A model generated the notes under the pieces. That model saw nothing but the letters and a program-made list of their open reading frames with translations, had not been told where the DNA came from and did not search any database. Positions 27,895 through 37,030 of a DNA stretch of 64,000 nt are shown here, piece after piece; the first letter of the stretch is position 1, and every line of letters starts with the position of its first letter. The stretch covers positions 496,001 through 560,000 of the forward strand of contig NZ_FRAM01000001.1 of the NCBI RefSeq assembly GCF_900142325.1, read 5' to 3'. Position numbers and translations under genes: made by a program. This DNA comes from Epilithonimonas mollis. Lineage in GTDB: Bacteria; Bacteroidota; Bacteroidia; Flavobacteriales; Weeksellaceae.

Positions 27895-28053
27895 ATACTT
27901 CCTTTTGTTTTGGCAAAAGTATAAATTATGAAATAAAAAAAGATAAAATAAAAGTCAATAATTTAATACTATTATATTAATATTAATTTTCCCGGTAATT
28001 TTTTATGAAATTTAAAAGAACTATGACTGAAAAAAAAAAATTGTATTTGGGTT

Positions 28054-28911
28054 TTATTTGGTAATATAGTTTTCCAGCATATACTCAGTAAGCGGATTGA
28101 GTGACTTATGATTTTCGGGGTTGATTCCATCCGCTGTGAAAAATTCCACAACATTCTTATGTTTGGAGTACCAGATATTTTTTATCGAAGTAATTGTATC
28201 CGGTCTCATAATTTTCTTAAAATGATCCACCTTTTTCATATCAATTGCTACCAGTCCGTCTCTTGTATCATTACAATCTTCAGGGATGTATTCATTTCCA
28301 TTCCAATACATACATTGTTTCAAGTCCAATATTTCCGGTTTTTCCTTTGGAATATTTATTAATTTCTGAGGCACATAAATGACAGACTGACTAGCAGAAA
28401 CCTGCTCAAAAGGCTTTTGTTTCAAAATCATGGTATCTGTTTCTGATATTTTTTGAGGTTCAGCTTCAGCTTTATAAAACTTATTTCTTATAAAAAAACT
28501 TCCCAATATTAAAACCCCTATGATCCCGAAATTACTGTGTTTTGTCAAAAATTCCGGAATCTTCAGCAGTGGTTTATTGATGACATTTATAACCACTTTT
28601 GAGATCGACTCTTTTACGGAATACTCCACAGTTTTCCATTCTGCACAGTATTCTTTAAAATTATTATAGCCCAAATAGACGCTCAGGTCGTCAAGTATCA
28701 AAGGTTTTATATTGTAATCTTCATCATTTTTAACCAAATGATTATAATATGTTTCAAATGTTCTATAGCTCAAAATTATCTTAAAATCATCCAGTAAAGT
28801 CCTTTCTAAAAATTTGAGAATTCCGCTAAAAGATTTTTCCGTGGTTTCGGCAGAAGCCTTTTCAAAAACATCCTCGATTAACTTTCTTTTCTCAGGTAAA
28901 AATTTTGACAT
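28054..28911 (-). CDS. Single-pass membrane protein of unknown function, likely target of the adjacent two-component system
   Basis: A 285-residue protein not assigned to a named family. Residues 1-120 are predicted soluble and helical (EKRKLIEDVFEKA, LSYRTFETYYNHLVKN, LDDLSVYLGYNNFKEYC), with a fold reminiscent of a DNA-binding or protein-binding helical domain. One membrane segment follows (NFGIIGVLILGSFFIRNKF, about 125-143). The C-terminal ~140 residues, on the other side of the membrane, carry CMYWNGNEYIPEDCND with two Cys that could form a disulfide. The promoter has a TACGGA palindrome and a TAATTTTC -7-like element, the same arrangement as the operon at 32000, so the response regulator at 31206 probably controls it. 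Confidence 0.75.
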   Translation of the reverse strand: MSKFLPEKRKLIEDVFEKASAETTEKSFSGILKFLERTLLDDFKIILSYRTFETYYNHLVKNDEDYNIKPLILDDLSVYLGYNNFKEYCAEWKTVEYSVKESISKVVINVINKPLLKIPEFLTKHSNFGIIGVLILGSFFIRNKFYKAEAEPQKISETDTMILKQKPFEQVSASQSVIYVPQKLINIPKEKPEILDLKQCMYWNGNEYIPEDCNDTRDGLVAIDMKKVDHFKKIMRPDTITSIKNIWYSKHKNVVEFFTADGINPENHKSLNPLTEYMLENYITK

Positions 28912-28929
28912 ATAAATGATTATTAGTTG

Positions 28930-28937
28930 GAAAATTA
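28930..28937 (-). promoter_or_regulatory. -7-like element TAATTTTC of the 28054-28911 gene
   Basis: It differs from TAnnTTTG only at the last base. It begins 23 nt past the edge of the palindrome at 28960 and is 19 nt from the start codon. There is no TTTG at the -33 position, as expected for an activator-dependent promoter. Confidence 0.5.
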
Positions 28938-28959
28938 TAATTTTTCTAAAAATCCTCTT

Positions 28960-28973
28960 TACGGATTTCCGTA
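28960..28973. promoter_or_regulatory. Palindromic operator, copy 1 (TACGGATTTCCGTA)
   Basis: A perfect 6-bp dyad TACGGA/TCCGTA with a 2-bp centre, centred near -40 of the minus-strand promoter. An identical 14-mer occurs at 31932-31945 on the other side of the two-component genes with the same 23-nt offset to its -7 element. Confidence 0.7.
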
Positions 28974-29281
28974 TTTCAATTAAAAAAGTTTCCAGAAAAT
29001 TTCTAAAAACTTTCTCACCCTCGCTTTCAATTCGTCCGCATCTTTGCTTCAGAAATCAGTGATAAACAAAACATTACAAAACAAAGTTACAAAACTGATC
29101 TCAAAAAACAACCTGATAAAGCGGAGGAAAATCTCTGATTTGGGAAGCAGTTATTTCTCTTCCGTTTTTGAAGGTCTCTTCCCAAAAATTTAAGAAGCGC
29201 TTCTTTTTCAAACTGTGGAAACCTGCTCGTGATCTGTTTCGCGAGGAAGAACACGAATGTCAATTTTTAAATTTTAAAATC
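28974..29281 (+). other. Non-coding leader region before the small secreted protein gene
   Basis: No convincing gene in about 300 bp. CATCTTTG at 29039-29046 is one base off the -7 consensus and may be the promoter. A perfect 9-bp inverted repeat, TTTGGGAAG (29139-29147) and CTTCCCAAA (29178-29186), could form a hairpin in the long 5' leader. A frame starting at a TTG at 29168 reads through here but has no signal of coding before ATG 29282. Confidence 0.4.
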
Positions 29282-29449
29282 ATGTTAAACTTACTTTTAA
29301 TATTTTTGGGATTAATTTCAAATCCTTCCGGCACGACGACTTCAAACTGTGGAAATGACGGGAATACGCCCGGAATTGTAAACCCGAATCCGGGTGGTAC
29401 CGGTGGAGACGACGGACATCCAGTCCCTCCAAAAATTATCGGCGGATAA
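29282..29449 (+). CDS. Small secreted Gly/Pro/Asn-rich protein
   Basis: A 55-residue product. A hydrophobic N-terminus (MLNLLLIFLGLIS) is followed by a short mature part rich in Gly, Asn, Pro and Thr (NCGNDGNTPGIV, NPNPGGTGGDDGHPVPP) with one Cys. It does not match a family I know. It is directly upstream of the histidine kinase, separated by a terminator, on the same strand. Coding is supported by the signal-peptide-like start and the terminator soon after the stop, but short length keeps confidence moderate. It could be a signal peptide sensed by the neighbouring kinase; that is conjecture. Confidence 0.5.
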   Translation: MLNLLLIFLGLISNPSGTTTSNCGNDGNTPGIVNPNPGGTGGDDGHPVPPKIIGG

Positions 29450-29476
29450 TCGATTCCATCATTAACTGATGAAAAT

Positions 29477-29512
29477 AATTAGCGAAGGAATATTCTTTCG
29501 CTAATTTTTTTT
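29477..29512 (+). terminator. Terminator between the small protein and the kinase
   Basis: AATTAGCGAA (29477-29486) pairs with TTCGCTAATT (29497-29506), followed by a T-run of eight. The kinase ATG is only 8 nt further on. Either the kinase is transcribed by read-through, or this acts as an attenuator. Confidence 0.75.
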
Positions 29513-29519
29513 AAATTCG

Positions 29520-31193
29520 ATGAAAACTAAAAACTTGAAAATTTTTACATTTTTACTACTCATATTCATTTATTCTTGTGAAAATAAAATACCGCAGGAT
29601 AAAGAAATTATTAATCCTTTTTATGAAAAAGCATTTGAATACAGAGAAAAGGGCAATGTAGACAGTTCGTTCTCATATTTTTATAAAGCCAAAGATTTTT
29701 TCCTTCAGCAGAAGGACAGCTTGGGTGCTGCCAAATGCATGGTGAACATGGCCATTATACAGGAAAAATACGGTGATTATTTCGGCAGTCAGGAAACAGG
29801 CATTTCTGCAATTCATTATCTGAATAAAAAAGACAGTACAAACAGAATATATTTATCCATTAATTATAACACATTAGGAATTATATCCAGCAAGCTGGAA
29901 AATTACAAAAAGGCTATAGAATTTTATAAACAGGCTCTGCTTTTCACTGATAATCCCGATGATAAGATCATCTACCAAAATAATCTCGCCAACAACTACA
30001 GGAGAGATAATGACTATCCGGAAGCTTTAGAAATTTATAAATCCATTATAAATGAAAGCAAAAAAAACAAAATCGGTTATGCAAGAACGCTCACGAATCT
30101 TGCCCTTACCAAATGGCTTCAAAACCAGAATTATAATCCAATCCCGGAATTTCAGCATGCCTTAAAAATAAGATCAAAAGAACATGACAACTGGGGTCTG
30201 AACTCCAGTTATGCACACTTTGCTGATTATTATACCAATAAACAGCCAGATTCTGCACTGACTTATGCCAGAAAGATGTACGACATTTCTAAAAAATTAA
30301 AAAGTCCTGACGATAAGGCTGAAGCGCTGCAGAAATTAATTTCTCTGGAAACTCCAAAAAATTCCAAACAATACTTCAATATTTATCAAAAGCTTAATGA
30401 CAGCCTCCAGACATCACGAAATAAGGCAAAGAATCAGTTCGCATTAATCCGCTATGAGACAGAGAAAAACAAAGCCGATTTTCTGAAAGCGAAGGCAGAA
30501 AGTACGCAAAAGCAAACTAAAATCTTTGTTAGAAATATCATTCTTACAGCATTAATTATTTTCATCATTTTTGTATATTTTTATTATCAAAGAAGGCAAA
30601 AAAGACTTCAGCAGGAAAAACTTTTGGAAGTAAAAAATACAGAACTCAAATATTCCAAAAAAGTGCATGACCGCGTTGCTAATAGAATTTACCAACTCCT
30701 GTCGCAAGTAGAAAACACGGATAAAATTGACAAAGAATCACTTTTATTCGGTTTAGAAAATGTGTACGAAATTTCCAGAGATATTTCTTACGACAATAAA
30801 GACATCAGTGAAAACCAGGCTTTTTCTGAACAGCTTCATCATATGCTGAATTCTTATTCGTCAAACGCTGTGAAAATAATTTTTAATGGAAATAATGAAA
30901 ATCTATGGCAGGATGTCAATTTTCAGAGCAAAATGGAAATCTATCTGGTTCTACAGGAATTGATGACCAATATGAAAAAACACAGCCGGGCAAGCATTGT
31001 TTCCCTCAAATTCTCTAAAGAAAATTCGGTAATAAATATCTCATATACAGATAACGGAACAGGAATAAAGAAACATTCTCCGAAAAATGGTTTGCAAAAT
31101 ATGGAAAACCGTATGAATGCTATAAAAGGAACAATTATTTTTGACACAGAAACAAATAATCTATTGAAAATCAACATTTCATTTCCTGTTTAA
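29520..31193 (+). CDS. TPR-containing sensor histidine kinase (lipoprotein, LytS/NarX-like)
   Basis: A 557-residue sensor kinase typical of Bacteroidota. A lipobox (LLLIFIYSC, Cys20) is followed by a periplasmic region of tetratricopeptide repeats to about residue 300 (AFEYREKGNVDSSFSYFYKA, YKKAIEFYKQALLF, YPEALEIYKSI). One membrane helix (IILTALIIFIIFVYFYY, about 339-355) leads to a short coiled coil, a HisKA_3-like helix with the phospho-acceptor His in KVHDRVANRIYQLL (about 382), and an HATPase with N-box ELMTNMKKHS and G-box DNGTGIKKH, GLQNMENRM. It pairs with the response regulator 12 bp downstream. The signal is unknown. Confidence 0.92.
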   Translation: MKTKNLKIFTFLLLIFIYSCENKIPQDKEIINPFYEKAFEYREKGNVDSSFSYFYKAKDFFLQQKDSLGAAKCMVNMAIIQEKYGDYFGSQETGISAIHYLNKKDSTNRIYLSINYNTLGIISSKLENYKKAIEFYKQALLFTDNPDDKIIYQNNLANNYRRDNDYPEALEIYKSIINESKKNKIGYARTLTNLALTKWLQNQNYNPIPEFQHALKIRSKEHDNWGLNSSYAHFADYYTNKQPDSALTYARKMYDISKKLKSPDDKAEALQKLISLETPKNSKQYFNIYQKLNDSLQTSRNKAKNQFALIRYETEKNKADFLKAKAESTQKQTKIFVRNIILTALIIFIIFVYFYYQRRQKRLQQEKLLEVKNTELKYSKKVHDRVANRIYQLLSQVENTDKIDKESLLFGLENVYEISRDISYDNKDISENQAFSEQLHHMLNSYSSNAVKIIFNGNNENLWQDVNFQSKMEIYLVLQELMTNMKKHSRASIVSLKFSKENSVINISYTDNGTGIKKHSPKNGLQNMENRMNAIKGTIIFDTETNNLLKINISFPV

Positions 31194-31205
31194 AAATAAA
31201 TACAT

Positions 31206-31871
31206 ATGTTTAAAAAAATTCTTATCGCCGAAGATCACGAAAGTTCTAACATCTCTGTTCAAAAAGCTGTACAAGACCTGAAAATATCAGACCCAAAATA
31301 TGTTAGTTACTGTGATGATGCGCTTGCAAGAGTGAAAATCGGACTTCATGAAAATAATACCTTTGAGTTGTTAATTACAGATCTTTCTTTTGATGAGGAT
31401 TATAGAAAACAAAATATTAATACGGGACAGGAATTAATCTCAGCGATCAGAGCAATCCAGCCCAATATAAAAATCATTGTTTTTTCTTCCGAAAAAAAAG
31501 AAGTTATTATTGAAAAACTTTTTACAGATCAACATGTGAACGGATATGTAAAAAAAGGACGGGATGATGTAAAGGATTTAAAAAAAGCAATAAAGGCGGT
31601 CTTTAATAATGAAAAACATATCACTTATGATCTAAAAACCAATAGTCCGGAAAGAAACTCTTTTGAATTTTCTGAATATGATACACTAATTGTCTCTTTA
31701 TTAGCCACGGGAATGCTTCTCAAAAACATCCCGGCGTATTTGAAAGAGAATAACTTCAAACGTTCCAGTATGAGTGCTGTAGAAAAAAGATTAAAAGACA
31801 TCAAAGAATCTTTGGATATCAAAAGTAATGAACAGCTGATTGCTTTTTGCAAAGATTTCGGAATTATCTAA
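31206..31871 (+). CDS. Response regulator with C-terminal LuxR-like helix-turn-helix
   Basis: A 221-residue response regulator. The receiver domain (about 1-125) has the acidic pair in IAEDHE, the phospho-acceptor Asp in LLITDLSFDED (about 59), the Ser/Thr in IIVFSSEKKE and the Lys in GYVKKGRDD. The C-terminal ~70 residues (FSEYDTLIVSLLATGMLLK, SAVEKRLKDIKESL, NEQLIAFCKDFGII) fit a NarL/LuxR-type DNA-binding domain of a divergent kind seen in Bacteroidota. It is co-transcribed with the kinase. I propose it binds TACGGA(TT/AA)TCCGTA, found on both flanks of the gene pair. Confidence 0.9.
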   Translation: MFKKILIAEDHESSNISVQKAVQDLKISDPKYVSYCDDALARVKIGLHENNTFELLITDLSFDEDYRKQNINTGQELISAIRAIQPNIKIIVFSSEKKEVIIEKLFTDQHVNGYVKKGRDDVKDLKKAIKAVFNNEKHITYDLKTNSPERNSFEFSEYDTLIVSLLATGMLLKNIPAYLKENNFKRSSMSAVEKRLKDIKESLDIKSNEQLIAFCKDFGII

Positions 31872-31896
31872 TTGATTAAAATAAACACTTTTTATT

Positions 31897-31927
31897 AAAA
31901 ACTTTCAAGATTTTGAAAGTTTTTTTG
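31897..31927 (+). terminator. Terminator after the response regulator
   Basis: AAAACTTTCAA (31898-31908), loop GATT, TTGAAAGTTTT (31913-31923), then Ts. It separates the two-component genes from the regulated operon. Confidence 0.85.
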
Positions 31928-31931
31928 CTTT

Positions 31932-31945
31932 TACGGATTTCCGTA
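31932..31945. promoter_or_regulatory. Palindromic operator, copy 2 (TACGGATTTCCGTA)
   Basis: Identical to the 14-mer at 28960-28973. It is centred about 40 nt upstream of the expected transcription start, overlapping the -33 slot, as for an activator that touches the polymerase. Confidence 0.75.
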
Positions 31946-31967
31946 AATAAAAAATAGATAGCCGAGG

Positions 31968-31975
31968 TACTTTTG
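31968..31975 (+). promoter_or_regulatory. -7 element TACTTTTG of the 32000-36783 operon
   Basis: An exact TAnnTTTG match 23 nt after the palindrome and 25 nt before the ATG at 32000. There is no TTTG at the -33 position. Confidence 0.7.
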
Positions 31976-31999
31976 GATAGTTAAATAAATAAAATAACA

Positions 32000-32332
32000 A
32001 TGGGAAAATTCATTATTACAAAAAGAAAAGATGGGGAATATCAATTCAACCTCAAGACCGGCAACGGAGAAATCATCTTAACAAGCGAAGGTTACGTTTC
32101 AAAATCCGGGTGTACAAACGGAATAGAATCAGTGAAAACCAATTCACAAATTGATTCGAGATTTGAAAGACGAATGGCTGTAAACAATAAAGATTATTTC
32201 GTTTTGAAAGCTGGAAATGGTGAAATCATTGGAAAAAGCCAGTTATATTCTACAAAACAAGGAATGGAAGACGGAATCGATTCTGTAAAAAAAAATGCAC
32301 CAAATGCTGAAACGACCGACGAAACAAACTAA
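32000..32332 (+). CDS. YegP family protein (DUF1508, two repeats)
   Basis: A 110-residue small cytoplasmic protein made of two DUF1508 repeats. Repeat 1 is FIITKRKDGEYQFNLKTGNG...EGYVSKSGCTNGIESVK. Repeat 2 is VNNKDYFVLKAGNGEIIGKS...YSTKQGMEDGIDSVKKNA. This is the arrangement of E. coli YegP, whose biochemical role is not established. It is the first gene of a seven-gene operon behind the TACGGA promoter and ends 6 bp before the nuclease-like gene, so it is presumably induced with the rest of the set. Confidence 0.92.
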   Translation: MGKFIITKRKDGEYQFNLKTGNGEIILTSEGYVSKSGCTNGIESVKTNSQIDSRFERRMAVNNKDYFVLKAGNGEIIGKSQLYSTKQGMEDGIDSVKKNAPNAETTDETN

Positions 32333-32338
32333 TTGACT

Positions 32339-33409
32339 ATGGAACTCAAATTAAAACTGGAACAGCTTCATCAGCGTGTGAAAGGTCTTAAAGATCAGAT
32401 ACAAACGGAAGAAGCCACAAAGACTGCATTTGTAATGCCATTCATTCAGATTCTTGGATATGATATTTTTAATCCGACGGAAGTGGTTCCGGAATTCATT
32501 GCTGATATAGGAACTAAGAAAGGAGAGAAAGTCGATTTTGTCATCAAGAAAGATGATGAACATATTCTTATTATAGAATGCAAAAACTGGAAAGAAAATG
32601 CAGATGCGCATAATTCTCAACTTCATCGTTATTATCACGTTTCCAAAGCAAGATTTGGTATTTTGACCAATGGAATCATTTATAATTTCTACACTGATCT
32701 GGAAAAACCGAACATCATGGATGAGAAGCCGTTTTTCACCATCAATCTGGATGATCTGAAGGATAGTTCTATCAAGGTTCTTGAGAATTTTACAAAATCC
32801 GGCTACAATCTGGAATCGATTTTGGATTCTGCGGAAGCTTTGAAATACATCAAAGCCATCAGAAAAGAATTTGAAAAAGAAATCGAAAATCCTTCTGATG
32901 AAATCGTAAAATTACTGGTCAACCGATTCTTTGACAGACCTCTTACAGCAAGCAGAATGATCACTTTTAAGGAATATACGAAGAAGGCTCTGAGCATCTC
33001 AATTTCAGAATCAATCAGCTCAAGACTGAAGTCTGCTTTAGTCATAAATGACAGTATTGAAACCGAAAAAACAACTATTCCTACACCTAATATTGACCAG
33101 AATACCGACACTCCCAAAGTCATAACAACGGATGAAGAATTGGAAGCTTTTCAAATTGTAAAAGCCATTTTGAGAGAAAAAATATCGGCAGAAAGAATTG
33201 CTTACAGAGACACGCAATCTTATTTTGGGATTTTATTGGATGACAATAACAGAAAACCAATTTGCAGATTTCATTTCGGAACCAATAGAAAGCTGATGGA
33301 AATTTTCCATAATGGAAAAGATTCCGGAGAGAAAATAAATCTTAATTCGCTTGACGAGATTTATAATCACAGATCTGAACTTCATCAAACCATCGAAAAT
33401 TATAGCTAA
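32339..33409 (+). CDS. HsdR-N/type I restriction endonuclease-like nuclease domain protein
   Basis: A 356-residue protein whose first ~150 residues match the HsdR N-terminal nuclease fold (PD-(D/E)xK): FVMPFIQILGYDIFNPTEVVPEF, then D in KVDFVIKKD and the E-x-K of ILIIECKNWK (about 65-84), followed by HRYYHVSKARFGILTNGIIY. There is no helicase region; type I HsdR is about 1000 residues, so this is a stand-alone nuclease-type domain with a C-terminal part of unknown fold. Such proteins are widespread in Bacteroidota and have no shown role. A TTG two codons upstream is not used; ATG 32339 is the start. It is second in the regulated operon. Confidence 0.88.
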   Translation: MELKLKLEQLHQRVKGLKDQIQTEEATKTAFVMPFIQILGYDIFNPTEVVPEFIADIGTKKGEKVDFVIKKDDEHILIIECKNWKENADAHNSQLHRYYHVSKARFGILTNGIIYNFYTDLEKPNIMDEKPFFTINLDDLKDSSIKVLENFTKSGYNLESILDSAEALKYIKAIRKEFEKEIENPSDEIVKLLVNRFFDRPLTASRMITFKEYTKKALSISISESISSRLKSALVINDSIETEKTTIPTPNIDQNTDTPKVITTDEELEAFQIVKAILREKISAERIAYRDTQSYFGILLDDNNRKPICRFHFGTNRKLMEIFHNGKDSGEKINLNSLDEIYNHRSELHQTIENYS

Positions 33410-33414
33410 TCATT

Positions 33415-33693
33415 ATGAAAAAACTACTTTTTATGCTATTGACCTTAGGAATATTAATCCCGGCAATTTACAAATCATCGACCAGTAATACTTCAATCAC
33501 CGAACATTTTGTCAAGAAACAGAAGAAGAAAAATTCTTCTAAAAGTAAGAAATCATCAAAATCGAGTTCAAAGAAAAAAGGCTGTACTTACAACGGTTAT
33601 CCTTTAGAAGTTGGACCGAGAGGCGGTTGTTACTATTGGTCGGGAAACACTAAGGAATATGTAGACAGAAGTTATTGTTCCGGATGTAATTAA
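33415..33693 (+). CDS. Small secreted basic, Cys-containing protein
   Basis: A 92-residue protein with a signal peptide (KKLLFMLLTLGILIPAIYKSS), a Lys/Ser linker (about 35-56, KKQKKKNSSKSKKSSKSSSKK), and a compact 35-residue end with three cysteines visible near GCTYNGYPLEVGPRGGCYYW and YVDRSYCSGC. The terminal module (YNGxxLxxGPRGGCYY...YVDRSYC) recurs in other secreted flavobacterial and phage proteins to my knowledge, but has no assigned function. The basic tract suggests contact with nucleic acid or a polyanionic surface. It is third in the regulated operon, 5 bp after the nuclease gene. Confidence 0.8.
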   Translation: MKKLLFMLLTLGILIPAIYKSSTSNTSITEHFVKKQKKKNSSKSKKSSKSSSKKKGCTYNGYPLEVGPRGGCYYWSGNTKEYVDRSYCSGCN

Positions 33694-33695
33694 TT

Positions 33696-34139
33696 ATGGA
33701 AACAACCAATACTACAAATGGTTTCAAACATCTGGAAATCATTTACAAGACTTTTTTTTCATTTTGTGCCTTGTGCTGTTTCATCGCCGTTCTTCCGCTT
33801 CCGCTACCCTATTATACCTTTCTCAGGATCATCGTTTTTATAGCTGCAGGGATTATAGTGTACTATTTCGGAAGGCAGAGAGACTTTCATTGGATTCTGG
33901 TATTCGGGACCATTCAGATTTTATTCAATCCGATCCTTCCGGTTCATTTTTATTTAAAGAGTATCTGGATTCCGATTGATATTGTTACCGGTATTTTGTT
34001 CCTGCTGCTTGTTGTCATCAGAAGAAAAAAGAAGAGACAACCCGAAGAAATTGCTCAGGAGACTATATCGCAACCAAAAACATACAGCAGAGACAGAATT
34101 ATCAAAACTTCATCAAAAAACAATCATAACAATGAATGA
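33696..34139 (+). CDS. Small integral membrane protein (DUF6804-like)
   Basis: A 147-residue protein with four membrane helices between about residues 13 and 110 (FFSFCALCCFIAVLPLPLPYY, LRIIVFIAAGIIVYYF, WILVFGTIQILFNPI, IWIPIDIVTGILFLLLVVI). The pattern LPYYxFLR...FNPIxPxHxxxxIWxPID matches what I recall of DUF6804. A charged tail follows. No enzymatic motif is visible. Its last 8 bp overlap the TerB-like gene. Confidence 0.8.
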   Translation: METTNTTNGFKHLEIIYKTFFSFCALCCFIAVLPLPLPYYTFLRIIVFIAAGIIVYYFGRQRDFHWILVFGTIQILFNPILPVHFYLKSIWIPIDIVTGILFLLLVVIRRKKKRQPEEIAQETISQPKTYSRDRIIKTSSKNNHNNE

Positions 34140-34542
34140 AACTATAGAAACAACCGAAAGTCTGAAAGCACATTTTCTAAGACTTTATCAAATGGCGATC
34201 TGTGATGACAATTTTAGTTCTCTCGAACTGAAAGCGCTCTACAAATCTGCAGAAGACAGAGGCATTTCTCAGAAAAAGCTGGACGAGATTCTTTTAAATC
34301 CTGTGAATTCCAAAATTACAATTCCGGAAAGCATTGAAGAAAAAATCGATTATCTCTATGATTTAACCGTCATGATATGGGCAGATGGAGAAGTTTCTCC
34401 CAATGAAAGAACTTCTTTGGAAAAGTATGTTTTGATGTTCGGATTTATGGAAGAAAATGCATTACAAATCGTGGATTATCTTATCGATTCTGTAAAAGAA
34501 GGGAAAAGCAAAACTGACATTTTTAACGATTTAAAAAACTAG
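34132..34542 (+). CDS. TerB-like (tellurite resistance TerB family) protein
   Basis: A 136-residue all-helical cytoplasmic protein. Two acidic helical repeats, FLRLYQMAICDDNFSSLELKALYKSAEDRG and LYDLTVMIWADGEVSPNERTSLEKYV, show the TerB pattern of a DG/DD turn with acidic residues followed by E. TerB proteins bind metal or membranes and appear in stress and phage-related ter systems. A much longer frame from a TTG at 33976 overlaps the previous gene by 160 bp and is rejected; ATG 34132 overlaps it by only 8 bp, typical of coupling. It is fifth in the operon. Confidence 0.82.
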   Translation: MNETIETTESLKAHFLRLYQMAICDDNFSSLELKALYKSAEDRGISQKKLDEILLNPVNSKITIPESIEEKIDYLYDLTVMIWADGEVSPNERTSLEKYVLMFGFMEENALQIVDYLIDSVKEGKSKTDIFNDLKN

Positions 34543-34545
34543 ATC

Positions 34546-35883
34546 ATGACCAGTAATATCAAAAATATCTTCAGATTAAAACCCGTACCTGCTGAAAAGG
34601 AAGAATCTCCACTTAAAATTGTTGAAACCGTTAATAATGGAGAATCTACTGAAGAAAGCAGAAAAAGAACTTATCACGAATCTGGCTATAGAGACAGTTC
34701 TCTCAACAATGGGAATCATACAGCGCTGTCAATCTGCCTGGATGCGATCTATTCCAAATTCCAGAATGAGGAAAAAGAATTGGCCGACAAACAAAACAAG
34801 TTGAAAGAACCTTATATCAACGAACAGAAAAATAAAGAAACCGAAATCAAAGGCCTCACCGTTTCTCTGGATAATAAGGAAGAACAGATCAAAGAAGTTC
34901 AGCAAAATATCGATGCTGTTCAGAATAAAATTGAGACTTTGAAATTTGAGATCAATGATATTCCCAGAAATCCGGAAATCTATCACATCAATGCCAGCAA
35001 AGGTGCTTCTACTAAGTTCTGGATCGGACTGTTGCTTTTGATTCCAATAAGCTTATATCTGTTTACATTTTACATTTCTACCTCTTTTTCAGCTTTTTTC
35101 AAGACTTTTGACCCGAACGTCAGTATTATGCAAAGTGTACTGGATGCGCAGGCTTTTAACAAAGCTTGGGACGAAGGTCCTTTGGAAGGCGCTTTTGTAA
35201 CATTGATTCCTTTTGTATTCCTGGGATTGGGTTATTTGATTCATATGTTCGGAGAAACTAAAAGCTGGCTGAATTATGTAAAAATGCTCCTTCTTTTTGT
35301 AGTGACTTTTGCTTTTGATGCCATTCTTGCCTATGAGATCGAATCCAAACTTTATGAACTTAATAAAACTTTTGATTCTCCGCCTTTTGACCTGTCAATT
35401 GCTTTTACAAAGAATCAGTTTTGGGGAATCATTTTTGCGGGATTTGTAGTGTATATTATTTGGGGACTGGTTTTCGATTTCATTATGAAAGAACATAAAG
35501 AAAAGGATAAAATCAAGAACGAGCAGATTAAAAAACAGAAAGACATTCTCATTCATCAGGACAGAATCTCTGGTTTTGAAAAACAGTTGGAAGAAATCAA
35601 AAACAACATCACCAGCATCAAAGAATTGATTATCAAAGCTAAAGGCAGAATAGAAGAGCTTCAGAATATTATTGATGGGGTTATCATTCCGACAAAAGAA
35701 TATAAATCTTATGCATCTGAATATGTTCAGGGCTGGATCACTTTTATCAATGAAAAATTAGCCATTTCTCATCCTGTAAAACAGGAAATAATTGAAGAAT
35801 GCAAAAATCAATACAATTATAACCTCAACAAAGTAGGCGCCAATTCTGACACCCAAAATTCAGTTTACGTTTCTGTCCTGTAA
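34546..35883 (+). CDS. Four-TM membrane protein with two flanking coiled coils
   Basis: A 445-residue protein. The N-terminal ~150 residues are cytoplasmic, with a coiled coil at about 70-140 (EEKELADKQNKLKEPYINEQ, then KEEQIKEVQQNIDAVQNKIE). Four membrane helices follow near 156-178, 217-233, 243-260 and 293-312. A second long coiled coil (about 313-380) leads to a C-terminal helical tail. I do not recognise the family. It could be an effector, an anchor for the nuclease or TerB-like protein, or a mechanosensor. It starts 3 bp after the TerB-like gene and is followed 12 bp later by the VWA-like lipoprotein. Confidence 0.78.
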   Translation: MTSNIKNIFRLKPVPAEKEESPLKIVETVNNGESTEESRKRTYHESGYRDSSLNNGNHTALSICLDAIYSKFQNEEKELADKQNKLKEPYINEQKNKETEIKGLTVSLDNKEEQIKEVQQNIDAVQNKIETLKFEINDIPRNPEIYHINASKGASTKFWIGLLLLIPISLYLFTFYISTSFSAFFKTFDPNVSIMQSVLDAQAFNKAWDEGPLEGAFVTLIPFVFLGLGYLIHMFGETKSWLNYVKMLLLFVVTFAFDAILAYEIESKLYELNKTFDSPPFDLSIAFTKNQFWGIIFAGFVVYIIWGLVFDFIMKEHKEKDKIKNEQIKKQKDILIHQDRISGFEKQLEEIKNNITSIKELIIKAKGRIEELQNIIDGVIIPTKEYKSYASEYVQGWITFINEKLAISHPVKQEIIEECKNQYNYNLNKVGANSDTQNSVYVSVL

Positions 35884-35895
35884 AAACTAATACTT

Positions 35896-36783
35896 ATGAA
35901 ATATATATATTATCTAATGACTTTGTCATTATTTTTAATTCAATGCAAAAAAAGCGAACCGAAGGCTGGGGCAACCCAAAACACCGATTCGATAGTGAAC
36001 AACAAAAACATTAATGTCAGCATTCTGATAGATCTTTCTGATAGAATCGATCCGGTAAAATATCCGAATCCATCCATGGAATATTATCAGCGAGACCTGG
36101 AATATATCAAAGCTATAAAAACTGGTTTTACAGATCATTTAAAAAGCAAAAAGGTCATTCAGCTGGATGATCAGATGCAGATTTTTTTTAATCCGGAACC
36201 TTCTGATCCTGCAATTAACGAGTTTGCAAAACAATTGAAAGTTTCATTTGACAAAAACACTTCAAAAGAAAATATTAAACTTGTGGACGAAAAGTACACT
36301 ATCCTCCCGGGAAAAATCTACCAATCCGCTATTGAGGATAAAAAATATGTTGGTTCAGATATCTGGGGATTTTTTAAAAACAAAGTCAAAGATTATTGTA
36401 TAAAAGACAAACACAGAAATGTACTTTTTATTTTGACAGATGGCTATATGTTTCACAAGGATTCGAAATTTACAGAAGGAACCAAAACTTCTTATCTGAC
36501 GCCGGAACTCGTAAGATCACTAAAACTCAACACACCAGACTTCAGGACCAAAATTGATGATAAAGGGTTAGGTTTCATTAAAGCCAATGACAATCTGAAG
36601 AATCTGGAAGTCATCGTCATCGGAATCAATCCAGAAAAAGGAAATCCTTTTGAAGACGATGTTATCAAAACCTATTGGGAAAATTGGCTAAATCAAATGA
36701 ACATCAGGAATTACCAGGTTAAAGATGCTGATCTGCCAACAAATCTGGAACCGATCATTAAAAATATAATTCTGAATAAATAA
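35896..36783 (+). CDS. Lipoprotein with VWA-like domain
   Basis: A 295-residue lipoprotein (MKYIYYLMTLSLFLIQC, Cys17 lipobox). The mature part has a von Willebrand A-like plan: ISILIDLSDR (a MIDAS-like D-x-S in the first strand, about 45-52), then VLFILTDGYM (about 176-185, with the second MIDAS Asp) and LEVIVIGINPE later. VWA domains bind partners through a metal ion. It is the last gene of the operon, and combinations of VWA and TerB proteins occur in stress and anti-phage modules, which guides the interpretation of the operon. Confidence 0.8.
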   Translation: MKYIYYLMTLSLFLIQCKKSEPKAGATQNTDSIVNNKNINVSILIDLSDRIDPVKYPNPSMEYYQRDLEYIKAIKTGFTDHLKSKKVIQLDDQMQIFFNPEPSDPAINEFAKQLKVSFDKNTSKENIKLVDEKYTILPGKIYQSAIEDKKYVGSDIWGFFKNKVKDYCIKDKHRNVLFILTDGYMFHKDSKFTEGTKTSYLTPELVRSLKLNTPDFRTKIDDKGLGFIKANDNLKNLEVIVIGINPEKGNPFEDDVIKTYWENWLNQMNIRNYQVKDADLPTNLEPIIKNIILNK

Positions 36784-36811
36784 TTAAAAAAGATTCAAGT
36801 CCGGGCTTTTT

Positions 36812-36847
36812 TACAAAAAAACAACCAGCTGAATTTCAACTGGTTGT
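36812..36847 (-). terminator. Terminator of tRNA-Gln (minus strand)
   Basis: ACAACCAG and TGAA (36821-36833) pair with TTCA and CTGGTTGT (36835-36847). On the minus strand the hairpin is followed by TTTTTTT. On the plus strand only a short T-run follows, so it may also weakly end the 32000-36783 operon. Confidence 0.75.
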
Positions 36848-36859
36848 AATTTTACAATG

Positions 36860-36930
36860 TAGACCCACAGGGATTCGAACCCCGACAGGCGGTACCAAAA
36901 ACCGAAGTGCTACCGTTACACCATGGGTCT
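36860..36930 (-). tRNA. tRNA-Gln (anticodon TTG)
   Basis: The minus strand gives a 71-nt cloverleaf. Acceptor AGACCCA pairs with TGGGTCT, the anticodon loop TTTTGGT has TTG at positions 34-36, and the T-arm CGGGGTTCGAATCCCTG has the TTCGAAT loop. The discriminator is A and there is no encoded CCA. The anticodon stem has one mismatched pair at its base. Confidence 0.95.
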
Positions 36931-36946
36931 GTCGTTTATTGTGGTG

Positions 36947-36977
36947 CAAATTTATAGCTTTTTTTTAAACTTCCAAA
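36947..36977 (-). promoter_or_regulatory. Promoter of tRNA-Gln
   Basis: On the minus strand TTTG (36974-36977), exactly 19 nt, then TAAATTTG (36947-36954), 16 nt before the tRNA. It is the clearest match in the window to the Bacteroidota housekeeping promoter and serves as a reference for the other sites. Confidence 0.8.
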
Positions 36978-37030
36978 CTATTTCTGAAAAAAAATTAATA
37001 ATTTTAAAAAATAATTTTTCGCTCAAGCTA

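Follow-up and report, generated by a model that had tools for sequence, protein, structure and literature searches.

The 64,000-nucleotide stretch of Epilithonimonas mollis analysed here (contig NZ_FRAM01000001.1, positions 496,001 to 560,000; called the window, and numbered from its first letter) carries a two-component system flanked by two copies of one palindrome. The order is A285 (on the minus strand), a gene for a small peptide, a gene for a sensor kinase with tetratricopeptide repeats (TPR), the response regulator gene, a hairpin, the second palindrome and a seven-gene operon at 32000-36783. A box of the -7 type stands at a fixed distance from each palindrome, and comparison of sequences among relatives suggests that the palindrome is likely to be bound by the response regulator encoded at 31206-31871. 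The features on which the argument is built are the following.

28054-28911, minus: A285, 285 residues, one hydrophobic stretch by eye (from the list of open reading frames, ORFs)
28937-28930, minus: -7-like box TAATTTTC, 22 nucleotides (nt) from palindrome 1, toward A285
28960-28973, strand-neutral: palindrome 1, TACGGATTTCCGTA (from the sequence)
29285-29449, plus: exported-looking small protein of 54 residues, with an N-terminal hydrophobic run and a conserved C-terminal end
29520-31193, plus: sensor kinase with lipoprotein-like N-terminus, TPR and hydrophobic segment (profiles, partly by eye)
31100-31113, strand-neutral: degenerate palindrome TATGGAAAACCGTA in the kinase gene, one mismatch
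31136-31143, plus: -7 box TATTTTTG, 22 nt past the internal palindrome, toward the response regulator
31206-31871, plus: response regulator with NarL/RcsB-type fold (profile, alignment, predicted structure)
31900-31926, plus: hairpin with T run resembling an intrinsic terminator, 3' of the regulator gene (by eye)
31932-31945, strand-neutral: palindrome 2, TACGGATTTCCGTA (from the sequence)
31968-31975, plus: -7 box TACTTTTG, 22 nt from palindrome 2

The palindrome and its -7 box

An earlier note on this DNA had described two identical 14-mers with a common offset of 23 nt to their -7 elements. Both 14-mers are there and the offsets are equal, while the length has to be corrected, the spacer counting 22 nt at both places (28938-28959 on the minus strand, 31946-31967 on the plus strand); the third, degenerate copy at 31100-31113 had been overlooked. 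The sequence TACGGAWWTCCGTA has three exact copies in the 3.70-Mb genome, two of them in the window, where about 0.06 would be expected from base composition with an assumed GC content of 0.36. The looser pattern TACGG-N4-CCGTA occurs ten times in the host genome and its reversed pattern not once, and at six of the ten a TAnnTTT[GC] box follows on one side after exactly 22 nt (both window sites, C4:759499, C4:966424, C6:35504 and C4:1516763). Summed over 23 genomes of the genus, the pattern outnumbers its reverse by 193 to 12, against 14 to 26 in the 16 other genomes of the same comparison, and the excess is therefore confined to the genus in that comparison. The possibility raised earlier that the 14-mer is frequent and unrelated to promoters thus comes out negative, since its few copies are associated with -7 boxes.

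The distance between the two elements follows a sharp rule. When TACGG-N4-CCGTA followed by TAnnTTTG within 10-40 nt was sought in the 23 genomes of the genus, 114 pairs were found, with a spacer of 22 nt in 100, 21 in four, 23 in two and some other length in eight; the reversed palindrome gave zero pairs in the same survey. The binomial tail for the excess at 22, one of 31 bins, is about 1e-132, a value that assumes independent sites, which these sites are not. Across 148 genomes, the composite site (palindrome, 22-nt spacer and -7 box) has 183 matches in sum, against one match for the control palindrome TACCG-N4-CGGTA, of matched composition, with the same spacer and box. In a separate set of 44-mers taken from the loci studied, which by coincidence also numbers 183 distinct members, the dyad gains a T on one flank and an A on the other, giving the consensus (T)TACGG-N4-CCGTA(A), and the spacer is almost information-free except for an A next to the dyad and, in 51%, a G two positions further on. 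No strongly conserved -33 element was found in these 183 distinct sites, which agrees with the earlier view that the palindrome occupies the -33 slot.

In Flavobacterium psychrophilum, mapping of transcription starts puts the TAnnTTTG box at -12 to -5 (PMC9723704). Carried over to the sites studied here, this would place the dyad at about -48 to -35, with its centre at about -41.5. Such a centre would be the position of a class II activator, the sign of the effect being deduced from geometry and the starts from the boxes of that relative.

The distribution of the site follows that of the regulator. Among the 148 genomes searched, with a strong regulator homologue defined by an E-value below 1e-20, the composite site is present in 49 of the 53 genomes with such a homologue and in one of the 95 without, and outside the genus the comparison is 26 of 30 against the same one of 95; these counts come from related genomes, for which Fisher values overstate independence. 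The association is also seen within genera: in one genus, a strong homologue goes with five sites in G074, and homologues that are only weak go with zero sites in G030, G058 and G087; a second contrast of this kind, of site with regulator, sets G088 against G031, G059 and G075. In the host genome, the composite site adjoins both regulator copies, the site at C4:1516763 coming directly after the gene of the second. We then have 91 regulator loci (the window, L046-L056 and L057-L135; L046 is the same place as L064, so that 90 are distinct), in which the gene calls of the relatives' stretches are simple ORF picks; the palindrome lies at most 450 nt 3' of the regulator gene in 57 of them, and 53 of these 57 have the -7 box at 22 nt. 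Together, the spacer, the missing -33 element and the co-occurrence lend comparative support to the earlier proposal, and the dyad is probably a site of this response regulator, of class II type, at about -40.

Chance palindromes were considered as an explanation and ruled out by the spacer, control-palindrome and co-occurrence tests; a repeat element was likewise ruled out, the copies being few (ten in the host genome) and their ten flanks looking unrelated.

Two further observations concern particular sites. At the second regulator copy (L057 from 5764, G000:C4:1516763) and in about a dozen relatives, the composite promoter leads no clear gene, and behind it comes a short conserved sequence closed by a terminator-like hairpin, by eye a candidate small RNA. 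Two near-identical composite sites are found at G082:C3:433408 and 443843, with a weak regulator homologue some 34-45 kb off.

The internal site and the signalling proteins

The internal site (31100-31143) lies in the 3' part of the kinase gene, ahead of the regulator gene. With A/G and C/T allowed at the second and third letters and C/T within the last arm, a palindrome-like internal match is present in 54 of the 91 loci, every one of them with the -7 box at 22 nt and 27 with a perfect TACGGN4CCGTA. Pure coding coincidence was considered for this site and rejected after a codon test in which the site was located via the protein motif and not via the DNA; 61 loci matched, including a few that clearly represent other reading frames or kinases lacking the site. 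Arginine is encoded by CGT in 54 of 61 cases at the internal site against 11% elsewhere in these kinase genes, asparagine by AAC in 40 of 41 against 29%, and threonine by ACG in 26 of 27 against 12%; the loci are mutually related, and tail values are not true probabilities. The encoded residues vary at the same time (TENR, TVSR, TGNR, TETR, TDSR). Codon bias while residues vary therefore points to selection on the DNA, as would suit a regulator-driven promoter in the kinase gene, and the sequences thus point to a regulator with its own internal promoter, that is, to a self-activating system. The internal palindrome might instead be a by-product of a conserved protein motif (ENR..GTI.F), which would fit the many loci that encode MENR, VENR or AENR and carry, like the window, an imperfect palindrome, as well as the fact that just half of the internal matches are perfect. 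That explanation is hard to reconcile with the TVSR, TGNR, TETR and TDSR variants, in which the palindrome is retained, and with the use of three codons that are uncommon elsewhere in the same genes, and we consider it unlikely.

The receiver domain of the regulator scores 30.8 bits with Response_reg (cut-off 30.2), and E9, D10, D59 and K117 are invariant in 12 aligned homologues, Asp59 being the receiver aspartate. The C-terminal domain has no Pfam GerE match; its helices are predicted at 157-217 (pLDDT 88), and a Foldseek search with the predicted structure gave RcsB as the best match, over the full length, with VraR, LiaR and EvgA also among the best PDB matches. The kinase matches TPR_12 with 65.9 bits and HATPase_c with 22.3 bits, under the cut-off of 26.4, and by eye has an H-box of HisKA_3 type, HDRVANRIY. 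Its TPR part stands between the lipoprotein-like leader and one hydrophobic segment (by eye), an arrangement from which the TPR part of this membrane kinase is predicted to lie outside the cytoplasm.

The C-terminal end of the small exported-looking protein, of the type TGG..GHPxPPKIIGG, is conserved in relatives, and the general form (hydrophobic start, TGG-E/D-G, PPK-type end) is kept before many TPR kinases (L047-L128), including those of Sphingobacterium (L052) and of a Chitinophagaceae metagenome-assembled genome (L054); in L123-L128 (family f3 of the order) the protein has by eye a lipoprotein-like leader. A filter recovers the small ORF in 36 of the 91 loci, 34 of which belong to the 54 that have an internal site, and in none of the 35 loci that lack both an internal site and an A285 match; 20 of the 54 internal-site loci lack the ORF by this filter, of which at least L058, L061 and L078 do show one. 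Over all pairs of 14 copies of the gene, differences at codon positions 1, 2 and 3 number 1032, 728 and 2354, a pattern as expected for a protein-coding gene. The small protein is a candidate ligand or partner of the TPR sensor. No composite site was seen for the small-protein and kinase genes (29285-31193).

Targets of the composite site

Of the 100 sites with a 22-nt spacer in the genus, 33 are at a regulator locus and 67 elsewhere. We studied 64 of the latter, in stretches extended up to about 6 kb downstream, and left out two sites near a contig end, plus G018:C5; two of the 64 turned out to be linked to a regulator locus or to the genes that usually surround one (L219, and L225, judged by the genes next to it). 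A same-strand ORF starts at most 300 nt from the site in 57 of the 64. The 105 operon genes were scanned against PADLOC in two batches, which name first members only, and single scans of sets of ten matched six, six, nine and two genes at the set limits, the last ten including the kinase, a non-target. At an E-value of 1e-20 or better, 22 genes in 13 of the 64 sites are named, which is a lower bound because the batch scans do not name members. The named matches comprise SIR2-HerA (L200), DUF262-like proteins (L210, L226), DUF3644 (L214), a CBASS operon of cyclase, HORMA, TRIP13 and 2TM effector (L215), Hachiman (L216), a SEFIR protein with a helicase (L217), a SIR2-like protein whose sole match at the limit is a TPR model (L221), Gabija A and B (L223), a type II or DISARM-type methylase (L227), a restriction-type helicase (L230), an OLD/AriA ATPase (L234) and PARIS AriA-AriB (L254).

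Three of these loci, L214, L215 and L216, are the three unlinked protein-coding targets of the host genome. The CBASS genes follow one another in the order cyclase (3.7e-110), HORMA (1.1e-96), TRIP13 (4.1e-114) and 2TM effector (3.1e-127), the Hachiman genes HamA (5.6e-108) and HamB (1.9e-286) are adjacent, and the DUF3644 gene, with a DUF3644/PDC-S19 match of 1.2e-67, is a defence candidate. These unlinked loci contradict the idea of a regulon limited to the block around the kinase and regulator genes.

For comparison, a control set of 105 genes was drawn at random from the 354 ORFs of at least 90 residues in 20 stretches of 20 kb, taken at round coordinates from 11 genomes; two very long genes were dropped before alignment and 103 scanned. 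At the same E-value limit, ten PADLOC families had one member each, by their names about four proteins, with ten as an upper bound. Fisher's test for 22 of 105 target genes against 4 of 103 gives 1.4e-4, and against the upper bound of ten 0.019, values to be read with the caution that operon genes are not independent and that the two sets were drawn differently (minimum of 50 against 90 residues). Outside the genus, ten likely-looking downstream genes were picked, four of which matched at 1e-20 or better: a type I methylase, a CBASS cyclase, Lamassu LmuA and NsnA/PD-T4-2.

A hotspot shared by five species (L214, L220, L234, L242, L254) keeps the dyad, a spacer starting AATTGTAAGT, the -7 box and the same chromosomal neighbours while the gene behind them differs, being DUF3644 in the host genome, DUF6119 in two species, an OLD/AriA-like gene in one and PARIS in one; the spacer of the PARIS hotspot differs in its second half. 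The recurrence of this promoter design in related genomes before anti-phage defence operons, among other genes, suggests that a single sensor may turn on dispersed immune systems of these bacteria in concert.

The operon behind palindrome 2 consists of the following genes.

32000-32332, plus: DUF1508 (YegP-type) protein, first operon gene (profile)
32339-33409, plus: HsdR_N / PD-(D/E)XK-type nuclease-like protein (profile)
33415-33693, plus: small exported-looking protein of 92 residues (by eye)
33696-34139, plus: hydrophobic protein of 147 residues (by eye)
34132-34542, plus: weak TerB-like protein, under the Pfam cut-off
34546-35883, plus: coiled-coil-like protein with hydrophobic stretches (profiles, sequence)
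35896-36783, plus: lipoprotein-like, von Willebrand A-like protein of 295 residues (by eye), last gene of the block in relatives

PADLOC gave weak matches only for eight proteins of the block, the best at 1.3e-5. In relatives the operon shows exchange of genes like that at the hotspot: in L061, palindrome 2 is followed by four other genes and then by another copy of the site, behind which the remaining operon genes lie, whereas L066 has two different genes in place of the first two. An Rfam search of 27900-37000 found a tRNA above the gathering score (36860-36930, minus) and one small-RNA match far under its own gathering score. Like 32000-36783, L207 and L233 are multi-gene operons behind a composite promoter; the single-gene PADLOC scans of their members gave no convincing match, and the three are candidates for unknown defence or envelope systems. 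A helix-hairpin-helix protein with a DprA-like SAM match is encoded behind a composite promoter in L202 (4627-5958), with a similar gene in L256; a link of these genes to DNA uptake is possible.

On the other side of the system, A285 has no match in Pfam or NCBIfam. A homologue flanks 41 of the 91 regulator loci, and a perfect palindrome lies on that side in 15 of the 91, other loci having near-matches such as TATGGAAAACCGTA with TAATTTGG, or boxes CTATTTTG and CAATTTTG. Control of A285 is less certain because its -7 box is variable across loci. In L071, L072, L074, L077 and L078, the A285-side box is shifted by one base (TAnnTTGY), resembling the SM5 box of PMC9723704. The earlier note had taken the whole 28.0-36.8 kb as one regulon, which probably holds for the operon fronted by palindrome 2 and is weakened by the variable box of A285 and by the existence of unlinked targets.

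Proposed mechanism, rival explanations and known systems

We consider it very probable that the pair is a self-activating two-component system with the palindrome as the class II site of its regulator, governing dispersed defence and envelope operons. In this scheme, the TPR-domain kinase (29520-31193) would phosphorylate the response regulator (31206-31871), a dimer of which would bind centred at about -41.5, in place of a -33 element, and activate sigma-A promoters with a TAnnTTTG box 22 nt downstream. Through the site in the kinase gene the regulator would raise its own expression, through palindrome 2 it would drive the seven-gene operon, and through the unlinked sites it would reach a genome-wide regulon of defence operons (CBASS, Hachiman, the DUF3644 candidate) and many lipoprotein-like genes. 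The site, the spacer, the co-occurrence, the codon bias of the internal site and the likely identity of the targets were obtained by computation; binding, activation rather than repression, phosphotransfer and the defence role are what we infer. The small exported-looking protein encoded before the kinase would be the best candidate partner of the sensor. A more tentative idea, which we judge rather doubtful, is that this small protein is a secreted signal or bait read by the extracytoplasmic TPR domain, giving a peptide-controlled regulon of unlinked immune systems under one promoter code, in which the promoter serves as a fixed socket; the signal may then be the density of neighbours, cell lysis or phage attack at the envelope of these Gram-negative Bacteroidota, and defence genes may be exchanged behind the fixed promoter.

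Several observations weigh against the proposed mechanism. Four of the ten palindromes of the host genome have no -7 box at 22 nt, four genomes (G060, G064, G077, G090) have the regulator and no exact site, G082 has the site with only a weak regulator homologue, and the two regulator copies of the host genome may share the site. On the A285 side, the -7 box is imperfect in the window and in most relatives with the palindrome, TAnnTTT[GC] standing at 22 nt in 4 of the 15 loci. A weak G (51%) where a -33 element would end may be a remnant, and the geometry would also be compatible with repression. If the regulator were a repressor, a dimer at -48 to -35 would block polymerase until the signal relieved the block; the palindrome does cover the -33 place, where repressors bind too, and the weak G would fit. 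However, no strongly conserved -33 element is left to block, and for this reason the promoters look activator-dependent; moreover, the spacer is fixed at 22 in 100 of 114 pairs, whereas repressor sites usually vary in position, and regulators of NarL/RcsB type at such a distance are typically activators, which makes repression improbable. That a different transcription factor owns the palindrome, with the two-component system merely one of its targets, might be argued from the sites distant from the regulator and from the two regulator copies; yet site presence tracks regulator presence over the 148 genomes, within genera too, and the site adjoins both copies, and we regard this explanation as very improbable.

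The targets themselves raise another question. A named PADLOC match at 1e-20 or better is found at 13 of the 64 genus sites as a lower bound, and behind many sites lie genes for small proteins, lipoprotein-like or secreted, that lack a link to defence (by eye), a DUF4177 protein being also among the non-defence targets; defence is therefore part of the regulon and not all of it. These facts, together with the resemblance of the regulator fold to RcsB and of many targets to lipoproteins, secreted nuclease-like proteins or helix-hairpin-helix/DprA-SAM proteins (partly by eye), could indicate a general envelope-stress or competence-like response in which the defence genes are bystanders acquired in islands that by chance lie behind such promoters. 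Against it stand the host genome's three unlinked protein-coding targets, which comprise two known defence systems plus a PADLOC candidate, and the hotspot, which keeps dyad and -7 box while the defence or candidate genes behind them differ; we see this response as a possible account, on the less likely side.

How bacteria coordinate their many defence systems is an open question, and to our knowledge the known defence regulators mostly belong to single systems. A readable promoter code of 44 nt would make the regulon listable in the genomes of the group, and would flag unknown operons as candidate defence systems (32000-36783, the DUF6119 genes and genes with HsdR_N only). The system also offers a sensor whose signal can be sought, and the sharp 22-nt rule provides a clean setting in which to model how class II activation works on TAnnTTTG promoters. 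The 14-mer was not found in the open-licence PMC literature, nor, among the matches listed there, was a prior description of a system of TPR kinase, LuxR regulator and palindrome, a result that does not imply absence from print.

Among known systems, the RcsB and NarL-FixJ regulators share with the present one a receiver with a helical C-terminal domain and a class II-like site, and differ from it in that here the C-terminal domain escapes recognition by Pfam, the half-sites are TACGG, the promoters are of TAnnTTTG type and the regulon contains defence operons. Residues 87-385 of the kinase match the NCBIfam model of FimS from Porphyromonas gingivalis (NF053520) with 44 bits, far from the equivalog cut-off of 600; FimS/FimR of that species has a fimbrial role, and we know of no TACGG site for it. 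The RRNPP peptide receptors (Rap, NprR, PlcR, PrgX), a group described in PMC7564271, resemble the present system in that a receptor gene stands beside a gene for a small exported peptide. These receptors contain TPR. Unlike those cytoplasmic receptors of a re-imported peptide, the present sensor is a membrane kinase with a TPR part that is predicted to be extracytoplasmic and with a peptide binding that is hypothetical. In Klebsiella pneumoniae, quorum sensing affects CBASS and restriction proteins, and neither a promoter code nor a dedicated two-component system is named in the abstract of PMC11233531. BrxR likewise exerts transcriptional control of phage defence, but in PMC9122589 it is described as a regulatory element of a BREX system, whereas the present two-component pair seems to act on many systems that are not linked to each other.

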